Part shown: one piece after another, positions 39,287 through 52,725 of the stretch
How positions within the stretch are numbered: the first letter of the stretch is position 1
Layout: every line of letters starts with the position of its first letter
NCBI RefSeq assembly: GCF_000145255.1
Contig: NC_014394.1
Span: 2,728,001 to 2,792,000, forward strand
From: Gallionella capsiferriformans ES-2
Lineage (GTDB): Bacteria > Pseudomonadota > Gammaproteobacteria > Burkholderiales > Gallionellaceae
Direction: 5' to 3'
DNA: 64,000 bases
Notes under the pieces: generated by a model
Database searches by the model: none
What the model was told of the DNA's origin: nothing
What the model saw: the letters and a program-made list of their open reading frames with translations, nothing else
Made by a program: the position numbers and the translations under genes

Positions 39287-42200
39287 CTACCACTGGTAAG
39301 CTTTAATCGCGGCGATCAATTCAGTCAGTGCTACCTCCATCTGTGCGACTGCAGCCGCACATTCAGGTTCGCCCGCCGTTTTTTCCACCAGTTCGGAAAA
39401 ATGCATCGTCGATTCGGCAGCGTAAATTCCTGCCATGCCTTTAATGGTGTGCGCACTGTGTCGCACGGCAGCAGCATCTCCGCGCAGCGCCCCCTCTTTG
39501 ATCTGTTGCATATGCGATGGCGCATCAAGCAGAAATAAACTTGAAATCTCATCAAACAGTTCACGGCTATCGTCCATGATTTGCCGCGCCTGTTCGAAAT
39601 CGGCCACCGCAAGTACGGCTGCCGGCACTACAGCATCAACTTCGGCACGCTGCACCAGACTATCGAGCTCCTGCCACAACGCTTCAGTGTCAATCGGTTT
39701 AGTCAGATAGCCATCCATACCATTTAACAGACATTCTTCGCGCGCACCCTGCATCGCATGAGCGGTCATCGCCACGATACGAATATGCGCCCCTACTCCC
39801 AGCTGCTGTTCCTGTTCACGGATACAACGTGTCGCATCATAACCATTCATCTCCGGCATATCCACGTCCATCAGAATTGCATCGAATGAACCATTTTGCC
39901 AAAGCTGAACAGCTTCAATCCCATTATTGGCGACGGTCACGGTATGCCCGAGCTTAGTCAGCAGACGCGTCGCCAGCGTCTGATTAACCGCATTATCTTC
40001 GGCCAGCAGCAAATTCAACCGGCGACGCATTTCCTTGAGCGAATGTCGTGTCGTTAACGGTTGCTCGGACACCCCCAACGCCGTCATGATGGCATCGAAC
40101 AACTCCGACTGTGCAATCGGTTTCATCAGATAAGCAGCTACCCCGAGTTCGCGGCAGCGTGACGCGTGACCGCGCTGCCCCTCGGAGGTCAGCATCATCA
40201 ACGTTTTAACAAGATATTCAGGATGCTCACGGATGTGCTCGGCCAATTCAAACCCATCCATATCCGGCATCTGCAAATCCAGCAAAGCCAGCCCGTAAGG
40301 ATGTCCACTAGCCGTTGCGCGCGCCAGTTCATCGAGCGCTTCCTGACCATTGCTCGTCACGACAGGATGCATTTTCCAGTTTGTTAACATCTCCTGCAAC
40401 AGGCGACGGTTAGTCGCATTATCGTCGGCGATCAGCACCGTCATACCCGCGATGCGTCCGGTCTGCTGATACTCCGCCAAAGGACTGACGGACAGCATCG
40501 GCATATCCAGCGTAAAGTAAAAATTGCTGCCTTGCCCGACTTCACTCTCCAGCGCGATGCTGCCGCCCATCAGGCTGACCAGTTGCGCAGAAATGGTGAG
40601 CCCGAGTCCCGTACCGCCATACCGGCGCGTCGTCGATGTATCGGCTTGAGAGAAAGATTCGAAGATAGTCTGAAATTTATCGCGCGCAATGCCAATACCT
40701 GTATCGCGGACACTAAACTGCATACGCATTTGTCCCTCGGGCGCGCCCTTCAGGCATTGCACATCGACTTCGATCTCACCGCTCGCAGTAAATTTGATCG
40801 CGTTGCCGACCAGATTGACGATTACCTGACGCAGACGTCCCGGGTCACCCAGCAGGCGATCCGGCACATCCGGCGCGACATGCAGCAACAGTTCAAGCTG
40901 TTTTTGGTGTGCGCGTACCGCCAGCGATTTCATCGTCTCCCGCAGCATGTGCTCCAGCGAAAACTCAATATTTTCGATATCCAGTTTGCCCGACTCGATC
41001 TTAGAAAAATCAAGAATATCGTTCAGTATCGTCAGCAGGGCATCGGCGGATGATTGAACCAGCCCCAGATACTCACGCTGTTCAGAATTAAGCTCGGTAT
41101 CCAAAGCCAATTCGGTCATCCCGATAATTCCGTTCATCGGCGTACGTATTTCGTGACTCATATTGGCGAGAAAATCGCCTTTGGCGCGACTGGCCGCTTC
41201 CGCCGCCTCCTTTGCCTGCCGCAACGCAGCTTCGGCCTCCCGACGCGCGGTAATATCCGCATTAGTACCAGTCATACGCGTCACACGCCCATTGCTATCG
41301 CGATCGACCACTTTGCCATGCGTATGAATCCAGATCCAGACACCATCCCGGCGCTGTACCCTGAATTCCACCGAATAAAACTCATTCTGCCCTTTGAGTA
41401 CGGCAACTAAATCGCTCTCAATTTTAGCGCGCTCGTCCGCATGAACCAAACTGAACAATTGCGTACTGGTAATGACCACCTCTTGCAGCTCATCTCCCAG
41501 TATCAATGACCAGCGATCACTCAGGTAAACCTGATCGTGCGCAACATCCCAGTCCCATAATGCAAGCCCCGATCCCTCCAGCGCCAGATTGAGGCGCTCC
41601 TGAGCCAGTCGAACGATCCGTTCGCTATTTTTTCGTTCCGAAATATCGGAAAAAGCAACGACCGATCCGTAGCTCACGCCATCGCGAATGATCGCACGCG
41701 ACGTACCTTCAACAGGAAAGGTCGTACCGTCTTTGCGCACAAAGACCTGATCATCACCCTGCCAGTCACCATTTTTGCGAACCGCCAGCAAAATAGGGCA
41801 TTGCTCAGCAGGCAATACATCACCTTCTGCCGTAACGCAATGAATCGTGTCATGCACAGGACGGCCTAACAATTCCTCACGCGTCCAGCCCAACATGTGT
41901 TCAGCTTCTGAGTTCATGTAAGTACAGCGACCTTCGCTATCCTGCACATACAAGCCCTCTCCCATCGTCTCGCTGATGCGCTCATAAAACGCGCGCTGCT
42001 CGGACAATTGCTCTTCAAGCATTTTACGGGCAGTAATATCGGTACGGACGGAGATATATCGCTCCGGCCGCCCCTCTTCATCCATAAACGGCACGATGGT
42101 CGATTCAACCCAGTAAAACGTTCCGTCCCGCCGGCGGTTTCTCACCTCGCCATGCCACACCTGACCGCCCTCAATCGTACGCCACATGTCAGTAAAAAAC

Positions 42201-42988
42201 GCTCTGGAATGGTAACCGGAATTGAGTATGCGATGATCCTGCCCCGTCAACTGATCAGTCGTATATTGGCTTATCTCACTGAACTTACGGTTAACGTAGA
42301 CAATACAACCCCGCTTGTCTGCAATGCTGACGATCGCATGCTCATCAAGCGCCAACTGCTGAAATTCGAGCTCTCTTAGCGCAGAGCTCAACTTATCGTT
42401 AGCCAGCCTTAATTTATTGGCCGCTTCAATATGTAAACTCGTATCCTGAAACGACACTAACGCCCCACTGACCTTACCATTTTGCAAAATCGGACTGGAA
42501 CGGAATTCAACCGGGATAAGTTCTCCGTTACGGCCGGAAAAAATAGCATTGGCCTGCAGTGAAACACCGTCACGAATCGACTTCAAGTGGGGACAGTCTT
42601 CCGGCTGTTGCGCTGAACCATCGGGGAGTAGACATTGCACATGCTCTTGCACTGGCAGTCCGATCAGTTCCTGCTCGGACCAGCCCAGTTTTTTTTCAGC
42701 CGCCGCATTCATAAAGGTCAGACACCCCTCAAGATCGGTGGCATACACACCATCGCTCAGCGTGTTCAGCAGCGTACGCGTCATCTCCGTGTTCTGAATA
42801 CGCATACGCTCATTTACCGCGTTGAGCTCGGCCGTATTCATCGATAACGAGTTCTGCAGCAGGCGCTGCTCCTTATCCACTTCGTGATAATAGCTATCGA
42901 CGATATCGAGGAACGACGTCAGTGCTGCATCAGCCTGAAAATCCTTGCCTAATTGACGCCTCAGCTGACGCTCGAGCAAACGGTGCAT
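39287..42988 (-). CDS. Multi-PAS hybrid histidine kinase with two receivers and Hpt
   Basis: 1233 residues. Four PAS modules (about 70-580) carry repeated YMNSEAEHMLGW/FMNAAAEKKLGW-type cores with PAC tails. The kinase core has the H-box FLANMSHEIRTPMNG (His about 612) and an intact ATPase domain (about 710-830). Two receivers follow (Asp in LLDLQMPDMDG about 904 and LMDVDMPEMNG about 1039), then a C-terminal Hpt (SAHTIKGMAG, His about 1173). No membrane segments, so it senses cytoplasmic signals. It follows the FIST gene by 7 bases; the pair forms one system. Confidence 0.92.
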   Translation of the reverse strand: MHRLLERQLRRQLGKDFQADAALTSFLDIVDSYYHEVDKEQRLLQNSLSMNTAELNAVNERMRIQNTEMTRTLLNTLSDGVYATDLEGCLTFMNAAAEKKLGWSEQELIGLPVQEHVQCLLPDGSAQQPEDCPHLKSIRDGVSLQANAIFSGRNGELIPVEFRSSPILQNGKVSGALVSFQDTSLHIEAANKLRLANDKLSSALRELEFQQLALDEHAIVSIADKRGCIVYVNRKFSEISQYTTDQLTGQDHRILNSGYHSRAFFTDMWRTIEGGQVWHGEVRNRRRDGTFYWVESTIVPFMDEEGRPERYISVRTDITARKMLEEQLSEQRAFYERISETMGEGLYVQDSEGRCTYMNSEAEHMLGWTREELLGRPVHDTIHCVTAEGDVLPAEQCPILLAVRKNGDWQGDDQVFVRKDGTTFPVEGTSRAIIRDGVSYGSVVAFSDISERKNSERIVRLAQERLNLALEGSGLALWDWDVAHDQVYLSDRWSLILGDELQEVVITSTQLFSLVHADERAKIESDLVAVLKGQNEFYSVEFRVQRRDGVWIWIHTHGKVVDRDSNGRVTRMTGTNADITARREAEAALRQAKEAAEAASRAKGDFLANMSHEIRTPMNGIIGMTELALDTELNSEQREYLGLVQSSADALLTILNDILDFSKIESGKLDIENIEFSLEHMLRETMKSLAVRAHQKQLELLLHVAPDVPDRLLGDPGRLRQVIVNLVGNAIKFTASGEIEVDVQCLKGAPEGQMRMQFSVRDTGIGIARDKFQTIFESFSQADTSTTRRYGGTGLGLTISAQLVSLMGGSIALESEVGQGSNFYFTLDMPMLSVSPLAEYQQTGRIAGMTVLIADDNATNRRLLQEMLTNWKMHPVVTSNGQEALDELARATASGHPYGLALLDLQMPDMDGFELAEHIREHPEYLVKTLMMLTSEGQRGHASRCRELGVAAYLMKPIAQSELFDAIMTALGVSEQPLTTRHSLKEMRRRLNLLLAEDNAVNQTLATRLLTKLGHTVTVANNGIEAVQLWQNGSFDAILMDVDMPEMNGYDATRCIREQEQQLGVGAHIRIVAMTAHAMQGAREECLLNGMDGYLTKPIDTEALWQELDSLVQRAEVDAVVPAAVLAVADFEQARQIMDDSRELFDEISSLFLLDAPSHMQQIKEGALRGDAAAVRHSAHTIKGMAGIYAAESTMHFSELVEKTAGEPECAAAVAQMEVALTELIAAIKAYQW

Positions 42989-42995
42989 GGGTAGC

Positions 42996-44111
42996 CTATT
43001 CGTAGAGGGTCGTCAGCGTCATGGTTTGATTATGCAGCTGACACTGCATGACATCACTGAACGGTGCCAATTCGCCATATGAATAGAATCCGGCAATTGC
43101 AGTCGCATCCCCTAATGTTTCCTGAACGATTTCCAATTCTTCCTCGGTCAGTTGCCCCATCACCAGACGGCGGCCCACGCAACTGACCACCAGACACAAA
43201 CCGGCTGCACCATCGCTTGCGGGCTGCGCGGCCTCAGCAGCAAGTCCGGCACTATCAATCAGATTATCCAGATTGGTACGCATCAGTTTACACAGATATC
43301 CTTGAGGAACATCACCGGCAAATGTTAGGCTTTGATCGGCCTCGCTCACCGCCAGCAAAGTACGGATCAGCGCCTTGTCGGACCGGCTCGCCTGCATGCT
43401 CAATGGAAAGCGCAGCCCACTGGCCGGCAAATTTTCAGCCTGCTCGCCCAGATATTTTTTATACAGCGCCAGCGCGGGTTCGCCATCGATTTCATACACC
43501 ACGTTACCCGCCGACTTTGTAACGATGCGCTCGGCACCGAACTCTTCCCATCCGGCAAAGCAACCGCTCTTGACAGTCACGTTCCCATAAAATCCCAGCG
43601 CAGCGATGCGTCCTGATCTCGCCGGTGCATTTGCCATCACCCAAGTTTGGCCAAAACGCGTGCCATCCCCTGCCAGCCCACCCGTGACAGGAATCCCAGC
43701 TGCATTCAAACCCTTGGCCAGTTCACTACCGTTCACCTGCAGTCCGTCTGACAAGATAAACGCATGACGCAAATCGGGAGCCGCCAGCTCCGCCATCAGT
43801 GCAGCCCCCAGCGTCTGAACACTCTCTTGCGGCTGCACATCCACCGTTGCCAAGCGAACCCGAGAATTTTCCAGCTTGACGATGGTCGCTACCATGTCGC
43901 CGTCGCTAATCTCGACACCCATCACGCTGCCTGAAGAAGTGCATCCGATGATATGTGCAGCAGGAAACAAGCTGCATAACTCGCTATAACACGCTTCGGT
44001 TTGAAATGCCGCATCATCGGCAAATACCAAAACCAGATCAGCTGTCGCTGAAAAACTGGGAGCTGGCTCCCAACCTGACTTACCAGACCACCCGATTTGA
44101 CCGATTTGCAT
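42996..44111 (-). CDS. FIST-domain sensory protein
   Basis: 371 residues with FIST N (about 25-215) and FIST C (about 220-355) regions; GLAGDGTRFGQTWVM, AAIAGFYSYGELAP and the paired layout are typical. FIST domains are predicted small-ligand (perhaps amino acid) sensors that lie next to histidine kinases or chemoreceptors. Immediately upstream of the hybrid kinase on the same strand. Ligand not shown by the sequence. Confidence 0.9.
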   Translation of the reverse strand: MQIGQIGWSGKSGWEPAPSFSATADLVLVFADDAAFQTEACYSELCSLFPAAHIIGCTSSGSVMGVEISDGDMVATIVKLENSRVRLATVDVQPQESVQTLGAALMAELAAPDLRHAFILSDGLQVNGSELAKGLNAAGIPVTGGLAGDGTRFGQTWVMANAPARSGRIAALGFYGNVTVKSGCFAGWEEFGAERIVTKSAGNVVYEIDGEPALALYKKYLGEQAENLPASGLRFPLSMQASRSDKALIRTLLAVSEADQSLTFAGDVPQGYLCKLMRTNLDNLIDSAGLAAEAAQPASDGAAGLCLVVSCVGRRLVMGQLTEEELEIVQETLGDATAIAGFYSYGELAPFSDVMQCQLHNQTMTLTTLYE

Positions 44112-45015: not shown

Positions 45016-45054
45016 TTGGTGCGCCATAAGCGATGAGTCAGGGCAATGGCAAAC
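45016..45054. repeat. Leftmost att-like junction of the tandem islands
   Basis: TTGGTGC (the tRNA-Thr 3' end read on this strand) is followed by GCCATAAGCGATGAGTCAGG, which aligns with the sequence after the 47225 junction (GCCACAGACGATAAATCTGG; about 15 of 20 identical). This marks the far end of the older island A. Confidence 0.6.
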
Positions 45055-45311
45055 AAAAATTTCATTGATTTGACCATCAATTTCGGCAATGCATTTTTAA
45101 ATAGCGACTGGCATGAGTTGGAATTTCTGCTTCACGGAGCGGTAAGCTATCTAATTTTCCGTGCTGCTATCGGTTTAAACCGACTATTTTTAAAACGCAG
45201 CCTTGGTAATAACCAACCAGCTGGCTTGACCATCTGCTCTCGAACAGGCAATTCTCAAACTCGTCCATCCGCTGCCGTGCCATTTCGATAAATATTAAAA
45301 ATCGGGAAAAA

Positions 45312-46118
45312 TTACATATTTGATGCTGCGGCGGCCTTTCTAGCTTCCAATTCGTTGAGTTTTTTCTGAGATACTTCTGACTCTTGGATCCGTTTCGCTT
45401 CCTGTCTCTCAAAGCCATATTTTGTATAAAAAACTAAATCTGCATAAGCTGTACCATCAATCGGATCACGCAACTTGAGGATAACTTCATTTCCATCTTT
45501 GTCTTCCCACTTACTGAAAGTTTTACTAACTTTATCAACATAACTGGAATCTGATTTTGTAGGTTGACCAAATTTATTAACTAAGATTTCTTTGAAATAG
45601 GCGTGAGTTGAGACTTCGTCGGAAGTAGGAGAGGTTGAAATAGCGAGTAACTTATCTTCTCCAACCTCAAAATAATATTTATCATCGCGAAATCCATAGG
45701 TTACATAAAAATTCATTTGCTCAACTCCCATGAACAATTCTTTCTTTCCGCATACTTTAACGCTGTTCTTCTTGTTTTGTAAGCAAAGCTTCTTCAATGA
45801 TACAAATGCCCCAGTTTGGTTAAAAGGAATATCCTTGAACGAGAGAAATTCCTTCGTAGTATTTCTAGTGGATGGTGCAATAGTTGACTTATTTGAGTCC
45901 GTAGATTTATCTTTACCAAAAGTGGCCATGCATGCTGCCAAATCACTTTCTGCTTGACGTGGGTCGACTGATGATGGATTGGCATTAGCATAACTTATGA
46001 GCCTTTGTTTACACCTGGCAACAGCCTCATCAATCGAAATTCCTGAGCCGCTTGAAGTTTGTTGCCCACAGGATGCCAACAAGAATAAGGAACTAAAAAT
46101 ACATAATTGTCTAATCAT
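45312..46118 (-). CDS. Uncharacterised lipoprotein
   Basis: 268 residues. A type II signal with lipobox LASC (Cys about residue 17) predicts a lipid-anchored envelope protein. Several paired cysteines follow in the first 135 residues; the C-terminal 40 residues are charged helix. No domain recognised. Codon use is AT-richer than in the core genes, as for other island genes. It lies at the left end of island A in the same position and orientation as the lipoprotein at the left end of island B. Confidence 0.65.
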   Translation of the reverse strand: MIRQLCIFSSLFLLASCGQQTSSGSGISIDEAVARCKQRLISYANANPSSVDPRQAESDLAACMATFGKDKSTDSNKSTIAPSTRNTTKEFLSFKDIPFNQTGAFVSLKKLCLQNKKNSVKVCGKKELFMGVEQMNFYVTYGFRDDKYYFEVGEDKLLAISTSPTSDEVSTHAYFKEILVNKFGQPTKSDSSYVDKVSKTFSKWEDKDGNEVILKLRDPIDGTAYADLVFYTKYGFERQEAKRIQESEVSQKKLNELEARKAAAASNM

Positions 46119-46275
46119 TTAGATGCCTCAATATACTTGTTTCTGATACAGAAAACACTGATCAATTCAGGGACAGAAGCTGCCATCCAGTCAGAATATT
46201 ATTTATTTACCAGCAAATTTTCGTTTACAGGTCATTTTGACAATTATCCTACCGGAACCAGCACAAACCAGACAG

Positions 46276-46303
46276 GCAATAACAATAACGCAATAACAAT
46301 AAC
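46276..46303. repeat. Perfect 14-base tandem duplication
   Basis: GCAATAACAATAAC occurs twice with no gap (46276-46289, 46290-46303), at the left edge of the GC-rich block. Could be slippage, or the scar of an insertion. Confidence 0.8.
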
Positions 46304-46750
46304 GCCCGCCATAATACACCCGGCTTGCTACCCTTGCTACCCCCTCGCTCGCTGGCCTCTGCCATGGGCCGAGGCACGACACGAACCGCGAAAATTCTGC
46401 CGCCGACCGACCCGCCGGACACTCAAGGTGACGCGAGAGGTACCCGACTCCAAACTGCTGCCGGTGCCGGATTGGGGCAGTCAGGCCGGGTGCGTGGCGG
46501 TGACGACATCGGGCAGTTTCGGACAACTCACCCGCAACCCGACGCCTCAACGCCAGCGAGTCCCCCGCAAGTCCATGCAGCGCAAGGCAGGCGTCAAGTT
46601 CGTCGGATGCGACGGGTATTTCCGGAAAATTTGGGGGATGGAGGGGTCGCAAAACTGGCGCACTGCATCATCACAACACACATCGACCCGACATTCCGCT
46701 TACTGGCAACCTATGGAGAACAGACGATCTGCAAGCGAGACAATGCAGAC

Positions 46751-46801
46751 GCTTAACGTCAAGGTTAATCGGCGGCAATGCGAAGCATTGGCGCGTTGAA
46801 C
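46751..46801 (-). other. Weak attC candidate in island A
   Basis: On the minus strand GTTCAAC at one end and GTTAAGC at the other fit the R'' and R' consensus (RYYYAAC, GTTRRRY), and a central perfect hairpin CAATGC-TTC-GCATTG lies between. Arm pairing beyond the hairpin is poor and 51 bases is short for attC. It follows the broken gene at 46827-47142, where a cassette attC would be expected. Confidence 0.35.
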
Positions 46802-46826
46802 CGATAGTTAAAAATTTGCTGCCATG

Positions 46827-47142
46827 CTATCGATGAGTTGTGATGCCATTGGTTGACGCCAACACCGCACTTTTAATTTTGCTTATAAGGGTGCCAAATT
46901 CATGCATTGAGCAGACAATTGTTTGCGAAAACAAACCTTGAACGCTGCGCCCATCCGGTTCTATTAGAGTTGTGCAAAAATTTGTGGGCAGTCGGTGCTT
47001 GTATTCGCCGATACTCTCGCGGTAAGCATCAATCTTGGACTCGACGAAGTGAGGAATAAGTTCTTGCAATGGAGCGCAGTCCCCTCGTTCTATGGCGATC
47101 AAAGTCTGGCGTCCAATCGGCTCCGATGATGATGTATGGCAC
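46827..47142 (-). pseudogene. Broken small gene of island A
   Basis: A GTG at 47142 preceded by AAGGAAG begins PYIIIGADWTPDFDRH, while the longer frame running to the stop at 46827 (AIERGDCAPLQELIPHFVESK) is in another register. The two parts join into one plausible protein of about 105 residues if one base is gained or lost near 47095-47105. No family can be named with confidence. Whether the shift is real decay or a sequence error is not known. Confidence 0.4.
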
Positions 47143-47225
47143 GGTTATGCTTCCTTTCAAATGCGATGCATCAAATAAAAATAGGCACTAATAATATAGT
47201 GCCTACACTCATACCGAATTGGTGC
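47138..47225 (+). pseudogene. Recombinase 3'-end remnant of island A
   Basis: Reads NAMHQIKIGTNNIVPTLIPN in the plus frame, one or two residues different from the C-terminus of the serine recombinase of island B. Similarity extends weakly about 20 bases upstream of the 68-base repeat (TATGCT...CAAATGCG), then is lost. The rest of this gene has been deleted or replaced. Confidence 0.65.
47158..47225. repeat. Left copy of the 68-base att direct repeat
   Basis: Matches 52588-52655 in the same orientation with two mismatches (47177 and 47196), ending at GGTGC, where the tRNA sequence begins to differ. It contains a perfect 9-bp inverted repeat, TAGGCACTA (47182-47190) and TAGTGCCTA (47197-47205). 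It is the outer boundary of island B. Confidence 0.93.
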
Positions 47226-47252
47226 GCCACAGACGATAAATCTGGGAACTGG
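47219..47252. repeat. Inner att arm of island B
   Basis: TTGGTGC followed by GCCACAGACGATAAATCTGG aligns with the 45016-45054 junction; a further partial copy (GCCACAAGCGATAAATTATT) stands at 47351-47370, next to the lipoprotein stop. These are likely the element-side arms of the attachment site. Confidence 0.55.
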
Positions 47253-47365
47253 ATGCATCATATCACCCCCCCTAATTCAGTCAAACCGAATAATCTAAAC
47301 CAATCATTGGTGAGTAAGATTTTGGAAGTAAATTCCAATTTACCCGCTACGCCACAAGCGATAAA

Positions 47366-47722
47366 TTATTTTTTATCCTTACAGAAATTAAATGCATGAC
47401 ACGTAAATTTGCCTGGGGTTTTTCCTGAAGCATCGTATTTACGTGTACAGCTTCTATTGGAAAATCCAACATACGCACCGTATGAGTTTTTAGCGTTAAC
47501 CTCAAAACAGATGGTGTCCGTATCAAATTTCCCATCAGAGTATTCAGCATATTTTTCATGAAAAAACTCCACATTACGATATTGAACCGACGAAGGGTCC
47601 TTCAAATCGGCCTCAAATGTGGCTTTTGCCCCAGCAATTGCTTTAGACTCATCGACACCTCCGCTACAAGCCGCTAGTGCAAAGCAAACTGAAAAAATTG
47701 CATGTCTGAGAATTATATTCAT
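47366..47722 (-). CDS. Small lipoprotein with DPSSVQYRNV-type domain
   Basis: 118 residues. Lipobox LAAC (Cys about residue 19) after a hydrophobic signal. The mature part has DPSSVQYRNVEFF, CFEVNAKNSYGAYVGF and a C-terminal Cys pair, a pattern I associate with small secreted proteins carried on phages and plasmids. Function unknown. It ends at the partial att arm at 47351-47370, and follows the cassette attC by about 160 bases. Confidence 0.65.
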   Translation of the reverse strand: MNIILRHAIFSVCFALAACSGGVDESKAIAGAKATFEADLKDPSSVQYRNVEFFHEKYAEYSDGKFDTDTICFEVNAKNSYGAYVGFSNRSCTRKYDASGKTPGKFTCHAFNFCKDKK

Positions 47723-47883
47723 AACAGGATCTCTAATAGAATAGTAAATGTATGCTAGGGGTGCCCTTAAATTCGAGACTCTGCGCGTTGCAATTCCCGT
47801 GAATGAGATTCAGTAGGAGGATAGCAAGTAGGCGCTGCGTCATTTCTTTGCCTCAGACAGTAGTGATTGGATGGTCATTTTTG

Positions 47884-47955
47884 GCCTAACGTTAAAGCTG
47901 TGCGGCGTAAACGAAGCGCAGCGTAGTATGCGTCCGAACGAGCGCTTTGTTAGGC
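47884..47955 (-). other. attC recombination site of the gene cassette
   Basis: On the minus strand GCCTAAC (R'') and GTTAGGC (R') are perfect 7-base inverted ends, 72 bases apart, with AAAGC/GCTTT as the next inner arms and GC-rich imperfectly pairing DNA between. The cassette gene's TAA stop lies inside R'', the classic arrangement. Orientation is set by the AACGTTAGGC end. Confidence 0.88.
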
Positions 47956-48524
47956 ATTTGGCACAGAAATCATGTCGTGAACTTCTTTGCGCAACATTTC
48001 GACAGCTTCATTCAGCGCTTTATAAAGTTCGGATGCCTTTTCTTTAGCCGTATTGGTACATACAGCATCTTGTGCAGATGAATCCCAGTAGAATTCGAAT
48101 CTGCCATCTGAACAGGCATTAATGGCATTTCGAACTCGTTCCAATATTGCTGGCGACAATGTTGATTGATATTCACAAAGAAACTCGTCAAGTTTGACCT
48201 CGTGCTGACTGAATAATGCAGCTATCTCTTCACTAGCCTCATCCCAATCCATATCTGGGTGCGATCTTTTAGGTAGCATCTCATGAAATACTTTGTAGAG
48301 GGACTTTGATGCGTCTAGTTTAAACTGAAAAACCTTTTCGGAGTTTTTGAGCAAAAACTTGTGGTCTTCTAATTTTTTTTTATAAACGCTACCAATAGAT
48401 TCTTTGATGCCTGTTTCAAGAAATTTTATAAGGACAAAGCCTATACCTACTGCCGTAAATCCAGCGGTGCTTAGAGCAGTAATTATTATCTCTGTCGTAC
48501 TCATGATTTATCCTTGATGCCTAA
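47890..48524 (-). mobile_element. Integron-type gene cassette
   Basis: One gene plus its own attC, bounded by the recombination points in the two attC R' sequences; about 635 bases. The start codon is 14 bases after the upstream attC with AAGGAT as ribosome site, and the stop is in its own attC. No integron integrase is encoded in the window, so this is an orphan cassette array carried by a mobilisable element. Confidence 0.85.
47950..48504 (-). CDS. Membrane-anchored cassette protein of unknown function
   Basis: 184 residues. One N-terminal membrane segment (about 8-28, ALSTAGFTAVGIGFVLIKFL), then a charged helical cytoplasmic part (KKKLEDHKFLLKNSEKVFQFK) and a domain with DMDWDEASEEIAALF and CSDGRFEFYWDSSAQDAV. 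I do not recognise a family; similar single-span helical proteins are frequent in cassettes. Expression depends on an upstream promoter, since cassettes rarely have their own. Confidence 0.8.
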   Translation of the reverse strand: MSTTEIIITALSTAGFTAVGIGFVLIKFLETGIKESIGSVYKKKLEDHKFLLKNSEKVFQFKLDASKSLYKVFHEMLPKRSHPDMDWDEASEEIAALFSQHEVKLDEFLCEYQSTLSPAILERVRNAINACSDGRFEFYWDSSAQDAVCTNTAKEKASELYKALNEAVEMLRKEVHDMISVPNA

Positions 48525-48577
48525 CGTTAAATTGAGGGGCTGCGCGCTTTTTGCGCAGCCCCTCTCGAATGTTGGAT
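48519..48577 (-). other. 59-base attC preceding the cassette gene
   Basis: On the minus strand ATCCAAC (R''), then a perfect 12-bp stem GAGGGGCTGCGC/GCGCAGCCCCTC, then AATTTAAC and GTTAGGC (R'). Exactly 59 bases, the original length described for such sites. Its own cassette gene, expected upstream (48578 onward), is absent or eroded. Confidence 0.88.
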
Positions 48578-49008
48578 TAGGTTACTTACCGTGATTTTAC
48601 AGCGCGACCTGAAAAACCAGGTGGATAAAAATCTTAGATGCCTTATTCAATATACCGGAGAACCACGGATACAACTACTAGCCATTAGGGCTAGACAGTG
48701 AATCCTAGACGCAACCCGTGTGATAAAAGCAGAATAAACCTCATCCTGATTCATGCACGAAAAATTTTCGCGCACTGACGCATCGCAAGATGCGTAACGA
48801 TTTGTGAGCAACGCGAATGCTTCTGGCCTTCCGCAGGAACCGCATTTCCGTAGGAAATATAGTCGGTCACTATATTTCTTTGAATTTGCCTTTTGGGGTG
48901 ATTTAAGTTTTCCGCTATTTTTAATTTGGCTCCAGCTATCTTTTTGGTTAATGTGTAACTGATTGATTTATATCATTTATACTAACTGCCGAAAGGATTG
49001 TCAAGCCA
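48578..49008. other. Non-coding spacer between cassette and relaxase gene
   Basis: 430 bases without a supported gene. It holds a dyad CTAGCC/GGCTAG (48679-48695), a GTGTGATAA (48718-48726) like the relaxase nick site of the MobV group, a hairpin ACGCATC/GATGCGT (48778-48795), two TTCC-N3-GGAA dyads and a longer perfect repeat (next entry). A TATACT at 48977-48982 could be the -10 of the relaxase gene. This is where an oriT would be expected. Confidence 0.5.
48829..48878. promoter_or_regulatory. Cluster of dyads, operator-like
   Basis: TTCCGCAGGAA (48829-48839) and TTCCGTAGGAA (48846-48856) have centres 17 bases apart. The second runs into a perfect 10-bp inverted repeat GAAATATAGT (48854-48863)/ACTATATTTC (48869-48878) with a 5-base loop. 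Suits repressor binding or a regulatory hairpin ahead of the relaxase gene. No repressor gene is recognised in the element. Confidence 0.5.
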
Positions 49009-50193
49009 ATGTACCAGTTCATACACATCTCCAGCTATTCATCGCAAGCCTCAAAAAAGAGCAAATCGTCTGCCTGTGTCAAATCAACAGTATCAGAAGC
49101 GGACCGAAAACCGAGTTACACCCACCACATTAAAGAGGTCGAAGCGCCGATCATCTTGTTTGGCTGCTCTCCGACTGCCGCAGGTGATCTGGCAGAAGCA
49201 TGGGGAAAACAGAACAAAATCCGCAAAGATGGTCATGTGCTGTTGGCTGGGGTCATTTCGGTCAATGTCGAATTTGAAAGCTGGGATGATTACAAGCTGA
49301 CTTGTATTGAGTGGCTGCAAGACAAATACGGTGATCGTTTGCAATCCGTGGTTGAACATACTGATGAAGATCATCCCCACCTGCACTTTTTTGTAATCCC
49401 GCGTGACGGCGAACGATTTGACGGCCTGCATGAGGGAGAGAAGGCGCGCAATGAATCTCGGGCCTTAAAACAGCGCACGGCCGATCAGAATATTGCTTAC
49501 AAAGCCGCGATGAAAATTTTTCAGGCAGATTTTCATTCTGCGGTATCGGCGGGATATGGCTTAGCTAAAGACGGACCCAAACGGCGTCGATTATCACGAT
49601 CTGCTTATTTAGCTGAAAAAGAGGCGGTCAATATTGTATCGGCTGCCACCTTGGATAGAACCGGTCTGGTTGAACAAGGAAGGAAAGAACGCACGGGAAT
49701 TATTGAGCAGACAAAACGTGAAGCGGTGCAATACCGTCTCGACAACAACAAACTGGCAGATGCCGCCATAAAAAAGCGGATGGATGAGGCCACTGCCAAA
49801 AACCAACAGGAGGCAGCTAAGGTCAAGAGGCAGGCTGAGGTTCTCGGGCGACAGCAAGGTCAAAAATCCTTTGAGCGGCAACCATGGATTAAAAAAATCC
49901 GTGCAGTGATATATGGAATTGTTCAGCTGGGTAATAAACAGCTTGAACGACTCCGACAACAGCTGATTACCTCAAGGTTTCAGGTTGATTCCAGACTGGC
50001 GGCGGCTAAGCGTGAAATAGCTGAAATGGCCGCTGAAATTGCCAGCCAGAAGAAAGATGTTCGGCATATCAGCGATTTATATGAGTCGGCCTGCAAGCTG
50101 AACAGGGATTTAAAGTGGGAGGCACAGCATCGCTCATCGCTGACATTTTCTGAATCTGCCAATGTACCGGATCACTTTAAAAAGCCGAGATAA
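49009..50193 (+). CDS. MobV-type relaxase (Pre/Mob family)
   Basis: 394 residues. The metal/catalytic motif HTDEDHPHLHFF (about residues 115-126) fits the HxDExxPHxH of plasmid mobilisation/recombination enzymes. The N-terminal part (to about 200) is the relaxase; residues about 215-375 form long charged coiled coil (EQTKREAVQYRLDNNKLAD), as usual in this family. It would nick oriT and lead the strand to a recipient using another element's transfer apparatus. ATG 49009 follows AAAGGA with an 11-base gap. Intact frame. Confidence 0.85.
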   Translation: MYQFIHISSYSSQASKKSKSSACVKSTVSEADRKPSYTHHIKEVEAPIILFGCSPTAAGDLAEAWGKQNKIRKDGHVLLAGVISVNVEFESWDDYKLTCIEWLQDKYGDRLQSVVEHTDEDHPHLHFFVIPRDGERFDGLHEGEKARNESRALKQRTADQNIAYKAAMKIFQADFHSAVSAGYGLAKDGPKRRRLSRSAYLAEKEAVNIVSAATLDRTGLVEQGRKERTGIIEQTKREAVQYRLDNNKLADAAIKKRMDEATAKNQQEAAKVKRQAEVLGRQQGQKSFERQPWIKKIRAVIYGIVQLGNKQLERLRQQLITSRFQVDSRLAAAKREIAEMAAEIASQKKDVRHISDLYESACKLNRDLKWEAQHRSSLTFSESANVPDHFKKPR

Positions 50194-50524
50194 ATTCAGT
50201 TTGAATCCCTGAAAGCCTTATTTGATTGGGGTTTGCTGAATTCTGCAATCTAGTTTGTCGTGTATCAACCGCTCGGGTAGTCGGGGATTATCAGGCGAAA
50301 TTATCAAATACCAGCGCTGATGGGAAGCACCCCATTTAATTGAAAAAATATTTTATGGCTTTGCGTTTTTAAGTTGCATCGTCATTTGGATCCCTCTACT
50401 ATACTTATATAAATCAACAGGTTGACAAATATCATACTTGTTTGTATTTATAAAATAGCGGTTCTGGGCATCGATATGAAGCAGGCGATGACGGGCTCCA
50501 ACAAAAACAATAATAAGGAGTTTT
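50194..50524. other. Spacer before the accessory-recombinase operon
   Basis: 331 bases with no gene. Its right part contains the promoter of the next gene (separate entry). Left part shows an imperfect repeat of the form TTCAG...CTGAA around 50198-50250 and nothing else I can support. Confidence 0.5.
50414..50450 (+). promoter_or_regulatory. Promoter and operator-like dyad for the small-gene/recombinase operon
   Basis: TTGACA (50422-50427), 17 bases, then TATTTA (50445-50450). A palindrome TCAACAGGTTGA (50414-50425) overlaps the -35 hexamer, the place for a repressor. It lies about 75 bases before the first small gene, which has its own AAGGAG site. Confidence 0.6.
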
Positions 50525-50818
50525 ATGACAGCAATTTATCAGGAGCAATTATGTAAAAAATCACTCGGCGATGTAGTCATTTCGGCGGCAGCTCAATTGT
50601 CGCTGGTTATCGATGCACTCAACGAGCGAAAAAATCGCTTGTTACTCACCGCACAAGTCGGCTTGCCCGACCATCAATTTGAAGCCTACCGAAAAATCCT
50701 GCTCGATGAGCTGGGTCGGAATGGATTTGAACGGGATTTGGAAGAAATCCTGAAGCAGCACACGGCACGGAATGGATCGGGCAGGCCTATACATGCAGGA
50801 AAGGAGGTGCCAGAATGA
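50525..50818 (+). CDS. Small uncharacterised protein of the element
   Basis: 97 residues, start preceded by AATAAGGAGTTTT. Soluble, mostly helical (DVVISAAAQLSLVIDALNER, EAYRKILLDELGRNGFERDL). No DNA-binding motif stands out. Its stop overlaps the next start codon (ATGA at 50815-50818), and a GGAGG at 50803-50807 within it serves the next gene. Its place before the recombinase suggests an accessory or regulatory role, unproven. Confidence 0.6.
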   Translation: MTAIYQEQLCKKSLGDVVISAAAQLSLVIDALNERKNRLLLTAQVGLPDHQFEAYRKILLDELGRNGFERDLEEILKQHTARNGSGRPIHAGKEVPE

Positions 50819-50965
50819 GTGAACAAACCCACCCATATCATAATTCGCTTTAAACCGCAGTTGACGTTAGTCTCAGCGGAAGAGTTAGCACTGCTTGAGT
50901 CCATTCTGCCTGATTTAATTCAGGCGATGCAGGCCGCGGAAGTGCATCAACAACAACAAGAATAA
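50815..50965 (+). pseudogene. Small frameshifted gene between accessory gene and recombinase
   Basis: ATG 50815 has an ideal ribosome site (GGAGG, 7-base gap) but stops after 12 residues. The other frame, open from GTG 50819 to TAA 50965, continues HIIIRFKPQLTLVSAEELAL. Removing one C from the CCCACCC at 50828-50834 gives a single 49-residue protein beginning MSEQTH. Alternatively GTG 50819 is the real start. Function unknown. Confidence 0.5.
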
Positions 50966-52587
50966 CAAGAACGTCTGATGCGCATCATGAATAACTGCGC
51001 CTCATACAACCCGTGCATATCAGTCGTCTGGGGTGTACGGTTAACTTTATGGAGAACTTTTATGCATGTAGCGCTATACGCACGCGTATCAACAACACGG
51101 CAGGCTGACAACGACCTGTCAATTCCCGATCAATTACGCCAGCTTCGTGAATGGGCGGCAGCAAACGGTCATCTGGTCATACAGGAGTATGTGGAGCCTG
51201 GCGCATCGGCCACCGATGATAAGCGCCCTGTGTTTCAGCAGATGATCAGTGATGCAATGATGAAACCAGCTGCATTCGAGGTTATTGTCATTCACAGCCT
51301 GTCACGATTTTTTAGAGACGGCATTGAGTTTGGCGTCTATGAACGCAAACTCGCAAAAAACAAGGTTAAGGTGGTATCTATCACGCAACCAACTAGCGAT
51401 GATGCTGGCGGAGAAATGATGCGCCGTATCATCTGTATGTTTGACGAGCATCAATCCAAGGAAATATCCAAGCACGTCTCGCGCTCCATGAAGGAAACGC
51501 CCGGCAAGGGTATTTTAACGGCTCTAAAGCGCCGTTTGGCTATAAAGCTGTGGCAACCAGCACAACGGGCAGTCGCGGCCGTCAGAAAAAGAACTGGCCA
51601 TTGATCCCGATGAGGCGGAGGTGGTGCGACTGATATACCGTCTCTATCTGAACGGGATTGAAGGTCGTGGTGCTGGGGTTAAGGAAATTGCCAAATATCT
51701 GGCCACGCTGGGCTATCAGTCACGCGGGAAACCGTGGAGCATCCAGAAGGTGCATTGGACCTTATCAAATACGCTTTACATGGGGGATTACTACTTCAAT
51801 GTGATGGATTCGAAGGCTAAGAAACAGCGGCCGCCGGAAGAGTGGATTAAAACTGAGATTCCAGCCATTGTTGATGCGGATATTTTTGAGCGTGTGAGGG
51901 TGCTGCGTGAATCTCGCGCCCCGCAAAGCGGCACAGCGATCCCCAAGGTGATGTCCTCACCCGTTTTGCTGGCGGGGATTATCAAATGCGGTGAGTGTGG
52001 CAATCGCATGACCTTATCCACGGGCAAGGGTGGCAAATATCGTTATTACAAGTGCACCAGTCGTCGGGGTCAGGGCAACCATGCTTGCAGCAGTAAAAAT
52101 ATCCCGATGGAAAAGTTTGATGAGATGGTGCTGAACCAAGTCGCGAATACGATCTTCCATCCTGATCGCCTTCAGATTCTGATGAGTGAATTACGCGAGC
52201 GGATTCAGTCTGGCAAAAACAGTCGGCAGGAAGTGGTTTCAGAACTTGAACGGCAGTTGAAGATTATGGATGAAAAACAGAACCGCTTGCTCGATGCCAT
52301 TGAAAACGGCATCGTTGAACTGGATGAAATCACCCATCACAGATCACAGCAAAACAAAACAATACGCGAAGCGCTGCTGATTAAAATGGCTGAGGCACGT
52401 AGAACTCCACTGCCTGCTGCCATTGAATATTTGAAACCGAGTCAGGTTGACTTGCTTGGCAAAGCGCTGCGCAGCAAATTGCTGGCTAAGGATTCCAACT
52501 TAGCCAAGGGCTATATGCAACTGCTGCTGGATGAAGTGCTGGTGGAGGATGAGACCGCGACAATCAAGGGGAGCTATGCTGCCCTTG

Positions 52588-52655
52588 CAAATGCGATGCA
52601 TCAAATGAAAATAGGCACTAATAATCTAGTGCCTACACTCATACCGAATTGGTGC
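52588..52655. repeat. Right copy of the 68-base att direct repeat
   Basis: Matches 47158-47225 with two mismatches. Six bases at its right end (GGTGC with the preceding T) are the CCA end and discriminator of tRNA-Thr; the rest codes for the recombinase C-terminus. Contains the same 9-bp inverted repeat (52612-52620 and 52627-52635). Confidence 0.93.
52607..52635 (-). terminator. Terminator of the tRNA operon supplied by the element
   Basis: On the minus strand TAGGCACTA, loop GATTAT, TAGTGCCTA is followed by TTTTC. It lies 15 bases beyond the tRNA-Thr CCA. Because it sits in the att core and inside the recombinase reading frame, it is brought in by the element and also copied at 47182-47205. 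Confidence 0.75.
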
Positions 52656-52725
52656 CGCCTATCGGATTCGAACTGATGACCTACCGCTTACAAGGCGGTT
52701 GCTCTACCAACTGAGCTAAGGCGGC
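52650..52725 (-). tRNA. tRNA-Thr (anticodon TGT)
   Basis: 76 bases with encoded CCA. Acceptor GCCGCCT pairs with AGGCGGC; the anticodon loop reads CTTGTAA; D-arm AGCTCAGTTGGTAGAGC and T-arm GTTCGAATC are standard. Its 3' end is the integration site of the islands and remains intact after insertion. Co-transcribed with tRNA-Lys, 28 bases upstream. Confidence 0.97.

Follow-up and report, generated by a model that had tools for sequence, protein, structure and literature searches.

A Two-attC CALIN as Probable Cargo of a tRNA-Associated Integrative Mobilizable Element

The attC-gene-attC locus at positions 47884-48577 of the window (the whole 64-kb stretch of DNA analyzed here) is very probably a CALIN, i.e., an array fragment with two attC sites and one complete cassette but no integrase, which is carried as cargo by an integrative mobilizable element (IME) that sits at the 3' end of a tRNA gene and encodes a serine recombinase and a MobV relaxase. 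We should note that this is a well-resolved and well-documented example of a known arrangement and not a new system.

The Cassette and Its Two attC Sites

The locus comprises the following features, all on the minus strand:

47884-47955, minus strand: attC-down, 72 bp, GCCTAAC...GTTAGGC, 31.9 bits, E 2.4e-5
47950-48504, minus strand: cassette gene, an ORF for 184 aa without known domain
48519-48577, minus strand: attC-up, 59 bp, R'' box ATCCAAC and R' box GTTAGGC, 57.6 bits, E 1.6e-11
47890-48524, minus strand: predicted exchangeable cassette unit of 635 bp between the two G^TT cleavage points, from the sequence and the cleavage rule G^TTRRRY (PMC9892861)

Both attC sites lie on the strand of the cassette gene and are 563 bp apart. 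The ATG of the gene follows the R' box of attC-up at a distance of 14 nt, and its stop codon TAA is contained in the GCCTAAC box of attC-down. The preliminary description had placed two attC sites of 72 and 59 bases around a single gene with exactly this start and stop, and its coordinates proved exact. At least two clustered attC sites without a nearby integrase make up a CALIN, and this is what the locus contains; it is not a complete integron, in which intI and attI would accompany the array.

The sites were scored with an attC covariance model of our own (R1), whose training set consisted of 16 other attC sites and contained neither query site. Twelve of the 16 lie in or next to arrays of related genomes, the other array of the source genome among them, and four come from class 1 integron plasmids. 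The pairing in the model is backed by covariation within the 16-site set (27 cells changed on both sides, compared with 10.3 in shuffles). Scanning the 64-kb window at E<=10 returned exactly two matches, attC-up and attC-down. Since R1 assigns 25-65 bits to known cassette sites from class 1 and class 3 integrons, both sites fall within the normal range, and the low scores that the preliminary description had named as grounds for rejecting them were not obtained. Against dinucleotide-shuffled sequences, attC-up is predicted to fold far better (z about -5 to -6) and attC-down no better (z about -0.3 to -1.5), so the support for the latter comes from its model score and from homology: over 75 bp it shares 88% identity with an attC site on plasmid pTBH13 of Thiolapillus brandeum, a 13.5-kb plasmid whose annotation contains no integron integrase. 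The attC-up type is common in the host family, and the attC of a cassette in a same-genus genome (L065) scores 59.4 bits and is about 86% identical to it over 49 bp. Rfam gave no match at the attC-gene-attC locus.

The weak fold of attC-down would fit two inverted-repeat sites that are chance hairpins or terminators, a reading to which we give hardly any credence in view of the independent model scores, the orientation of the sites, the stop codon located in R'', the close likeness of attC-down to an attC from another class of bacteria, and the relatives of the cassette gene that are themselves found beside attC sites.

Relatives of the Cassette Gene

Such relatives adjoin attC at three loci (L067, L065, and L068), found in Aliivibrio sifiae, in the same-genus genome G015, and on a metagenome (MAG) contig. 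The best relative among named genomes is that in the cassette array of A. sifiae (55% identity); there, too, the stop codon falls within a GCCTAAC box, and long attC-like repeats of Vibrio type flank the following gene. The G015 relative (43%) is preceded by GTTGGGC and followed by the 59.4-bit attC mentioned above. On the metagenome contig, the last 49 residues match the cassette protein at 96%, after which an attC-like repeat and more cassettes follow. A more distant relative (L066, 28%) has no attC. Judged by its sequence context, with one ORF followed by its attC and relatives in arrays elsewhere, the 184-aa gene is a true cassette gene.

The cassette protein had no relatives in searches of plasmids, phages, and viral contigs, and a search through 369 genomes of the class returned the source window alone. 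Nothing convincing was obtained with the protein in Pfam, NCBIfam, and PADLOC searches. The predicted structure, which is of low confidence (pLDDT 63), has an N-terminal hydrophobic helix and an all-helical remainder.

The Carrier Element

The cassette lies within a 5.4-kb element, which is stacked on an older one next to a tRNA gene:

45016-47225: remnant of an older element, 2.2 kb, tandem accretion, with a TTGGTGC core in common with the IME
47153-47225 and 52583-52655: 73-bp direct repeats (96%), ending in the core TTGGTGC
47219-52655: IME, 5.4 kb, with TTGGTGC cores within the 73-bp direct repeats and an empty site in G018
47366-47722, minus strand: lipoprotein-like ORF, 118 aa, other cargo without adjoining attC
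48584-49008: conserved non-coding stretch upstream of the relaxase, kept in the sister copies L072 and L073
49009-50193, plus strand: MobV/Mob_Pre-type relaxase, 394 aa, HTDEDHPHLH motif, Pfam PF01076 at 32.0 bits (cut-off 25.5)
50525-50818, plus strand: small conserved ORF of the IME core, 97 aa, also in L072, L073, and L109
50978-52676, plus strand: large serine recombinase, disrupted, with the Pfam domains Resolvase, Recombinase, and Zn_ribbon_recom
52650-52725, minus strand: tRNA-Thr(tgt), integration target at its 3' GCACCA end

Within the core TTGGTGC, the 3' GCACCA of tRNA-Thr is found as its reverse complement. A third copy of this core is located at 45016-45022, and in the same-genus genome G018 the sequence to the left of window position 45022 is joined directly to that to the right of 52648, which represents the empty site. 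The window thus contains two stacked elements, the 2.2-kb remnant and the 5.4-kb IME. The left end of the remnant is also present at another locus of the element family (L109).

With a site-specific recombinase, att direct repeats, an empty site, and a relaxase that is not accompanied by a conjugation apparatus, the 5.4-kb element is an IME, albeit one in which the recombinase frame is broken in this copy. No conjugation-apparatus domains were found in its other ORFs (118, 184, and 97 aa, and the recombinase). The claim that the cassette resides in a mobilizable element bearing a relaxase is therefore borne out by the 5.4-kb IME, the Mob_Pre match over the cut-off, and the empty site in G018. 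The stretch at 48584-49008 is the probable position of the origin of transfer, a candidate oriT.

Compared with an intact 572-aa copy in the same genome, the recombinase of the window has two 1-base deletions (near 51495 and 51592), which makes the present mobility of the element doubtful without help in trans. The recombinase copy in L109 is intact and has 97% DNA identity to that of the window. Recombinase copies are broken into separate frames at different places in the window (50978-52676), in L072 (5250-6881), and in L073 (11271-12932); these breaks are either repeated post-integration decay or sequencing errors.

Sister Elements Without attC

Two other full copies of the region from relaxase to recombinase were found, one in the source genome at a tRNA-Arg gene (L072, 86% DNA identity) and one in G018 (L073, 84%). 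Their relaxases are 96% and 89% identical at the amino acid level, respectively. Core homology to both copies ends at 48584-48590, just outside attC-up (by 7 bp or a little more), and the attC model found no attC in either IME copy. The cassette is thus acquired cargo. The left 70 bp of the IME are common to the window and the G018 copy, but the cargo of the latter consists of two unrelated genes, indicating that the zone between the left end and the relaxase varies in cargo from copy to copy. The array fragment is what this variable zone took up in the window copy. Among 158 genomes of the family, the full IME core is present only in the source genome (two copies) and in one other, and the plasmid search returned no full-length close relative of it.

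Absence of an Integrase and Other attC Loci

The source genome consists of one 3.16-Mb contig with an estimated completeness of 100%. The IntI profile TIGR02249 had no match within the 64-kb window, as the preliminary description had stated, and its best match in the complete genome reaches 84 bits, far below the cut-off of 265. The best matches are XerC/XerD-like and miss most of profile positions 178-237. A regular integron nearby, which would have spoken against an integrase-less cassette, is thus not found, there being no intI in the complete genome. True intI is present in 83 of the 158 family genomes.

Model R1 detected three further attC loci without integrase in the genome, and nearly all of its matches outside the window are grouped in arrays:

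G000:C1:1627704-1636904 (L063 5704-14904): array of 12 attC sites, all on one strand, without integrase
G000:C1:1878186-1881567 (L097): array of three attC sites, with a 429-aa ORF between two of them
423812 (L098 7813-7875): lone attC directly after a SEFIR/TIR-domain gene

The cassette had been described as an orphan. This holds in that no integrase accompanies it, but it is not an isolated oddity, given these three loci and the frequency of intI in the family. The lack of intI, the other arrays, and the intI genes of the family together suggest that the genome probably lost an integron or received its arrays without one. Several TIR-domain genes are located among or beside the cassettes of the 12-attC array, and a 204-aa short tyrosine recombinase is encoded at one of its ends.

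Loss of an integron in the lineage, with which the other CALINs and the missing intI are consistent, could also mean that the array was part of a resident integron of the chromosome that has decayed and lost its integrase in situ, the IME having merely inserted beside it. We consider this very unlikely: the attC sites sit between the left end of the IME (47219, common to L073) and the relaxase core, the empty site in G018 contains no attC, and the main CALIN of the genome is located elsewhere (1.63 Mb).

Origin of the Array Fragment

Our preferred reading, with the array fragment as IME cargo, would proceed as follows. The IME inserts into tRNA genes at their 3' GCACCA end by means of its large serine recombinase, and the array fragment would have entered the variable zone of the IME in a host cell with an integron in its genome, as is common in the family. 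The IME could then carry the cassette between cells using a helper conjugation system and a recombinase in trans, and an IntI in a later host may excise the cassette as the 635-bp unit (47890-48524). Shuffling of the cassette would still need IntI in the recipient.

How the fragment entered is a separate matter. An IntI acting in trans may have loaded the cassette, using either a resident attC or a GTT site resembling attG, in place of homologous or illegitimate recombination. Insertion at attG has been described (Loot et al., 2024, as cited in PMC11389934) and, together with the intI of 83 of the 158 family genomes, lends this route some plausibility, as does a GTTAGCT motif that L072 has at the junction position where attC-up starts. 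L073, on the other hand, has GCTAGCT and not GTT at this position. A clean signature of an attC x attG insertion is absent at both junctions. The conserved IME core directly adjoins attC-up, running into its R'' box without an intervening gene or a TTRRRY cassette start, which is unlike the product of one attC x attG insertion. In addition, attC-up and attC-down both have full consensus R' boxes, suggesting a piece of a longer array and fitting such a fragment better than a single attG insertion. Loading by IntI is thus possible but the less likely route.

A further-reaching idea is that the IME family serves as a cassette shuttle for this integron-rich bacterial family, with a docking place by the transfer origin at which the IntI of the host loads cassettes while the element is single-stranded in conjugation; we regard it as quite improbable.

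Relation to Known Systems

CALINs are clusters of attC sites lacking an integron-integrase (Cury et al., 2016; IntegronFinder 2.0, PMC9024848). In over 20,000 genomes, 2961 CALINs were found with almost 6 attC sites on average (IntegronFinder 2.0, PMC9024848). As in these clusters, the attC sites of the window locus number at least two and share one orientation, a cassette gene is present, and an integrase is lacking, but the locus is at the minimum size (two attC sites) and its carrier is resolved as an IME with an empty site. The attC sites of phage CALINs recombine with attI1 (Qi et al., 2023, PMC9892861), and CALINs have been described as hitchers that are mobilizable in trans by integrons and are present on conjugative elements (PMC11389934). 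Phage and plasmid CALINs (e.g., that on pTBH13) are likewise integrase-less attC arrays on mobile elements; the carrier in the window differs in being a chromosomal element with a relaxase and a serine recombinase.

SGI1-type IMEs with class 1 integrons also have integron cassettes as variable cargo (e.g., PMC7056807). This they have in common with the window element. SGI1 contains a complete class 1 integron with intI1, plus a tyrosine integrase, whereas the window element is 5.4 kb in size, has no intI, and encodes a serine recombinase and a MobV relaxase. IMEs that combine a MobV-type relaxase with a serine recombinase and occupy tRNA 3' ends share with it the relaxase, the site-specific recombinase, the lack of conjugation machinery, and the direct-repeat att ends, but the family found in the window is narrow. 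Mobilizable islands with integrons (SGI1 group) have long been known. The preliminary description had seen in this mobile carrier a route for cassettes between cells that is independent of integrons; the carrier is supported and may offer such a route, but the idea had already been described, CALINs being known from plasmids and phages and integrons from mobilizable islands. The window is a clean example from an environmental, integron-rich lineage, with the cassette, the limits of its carrier, the empty site, and sister elements lacking the cassette all resolved. It supports the view that small mobilizable elements can carry cassettes as cargo into genomes without integrase and leaves the picture of how integrons work unchanged.

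Neighboring and Related Loci

At 39287-44111, next to the integration site, the window encodes a hybrid histidine kinase with PAS domains and a FIST-domain (NosP-like) protein, likely a sensor pair. The remnant at 45016-47225 contains a lipoprotein-like ORF of 268 aa and, at 46290-46790, an unusual region without clear genes; its clear recombinase trace is limited to the last codons, located in the 73-bp repeat. L109 (G000:C1:1819000-1838000) also holds stacked elements of this family, without relaxase, and parts of it correspond to the left ends of the two elements in the window.

Two other ORFs were considered as possible further cassettes. The ORF at 47736-47843 (minus strand), to the left of attC-down, has no significant relatives, and a third, truncated cassette is not claimed. 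The 118-aa lipoprotein ORF has no adjoining attC, and its relatives in G018 and G071 are without attC as well; in L093, attC sites are found nearby. The cargo of the G018 copy (L073 6353-8695) encodes a 514-aa protein without domains and a 234-aa Hypoth_Ymh protein, the latter with a weak match to the PADLOC candidate defence model PD-Lambda-3_B.
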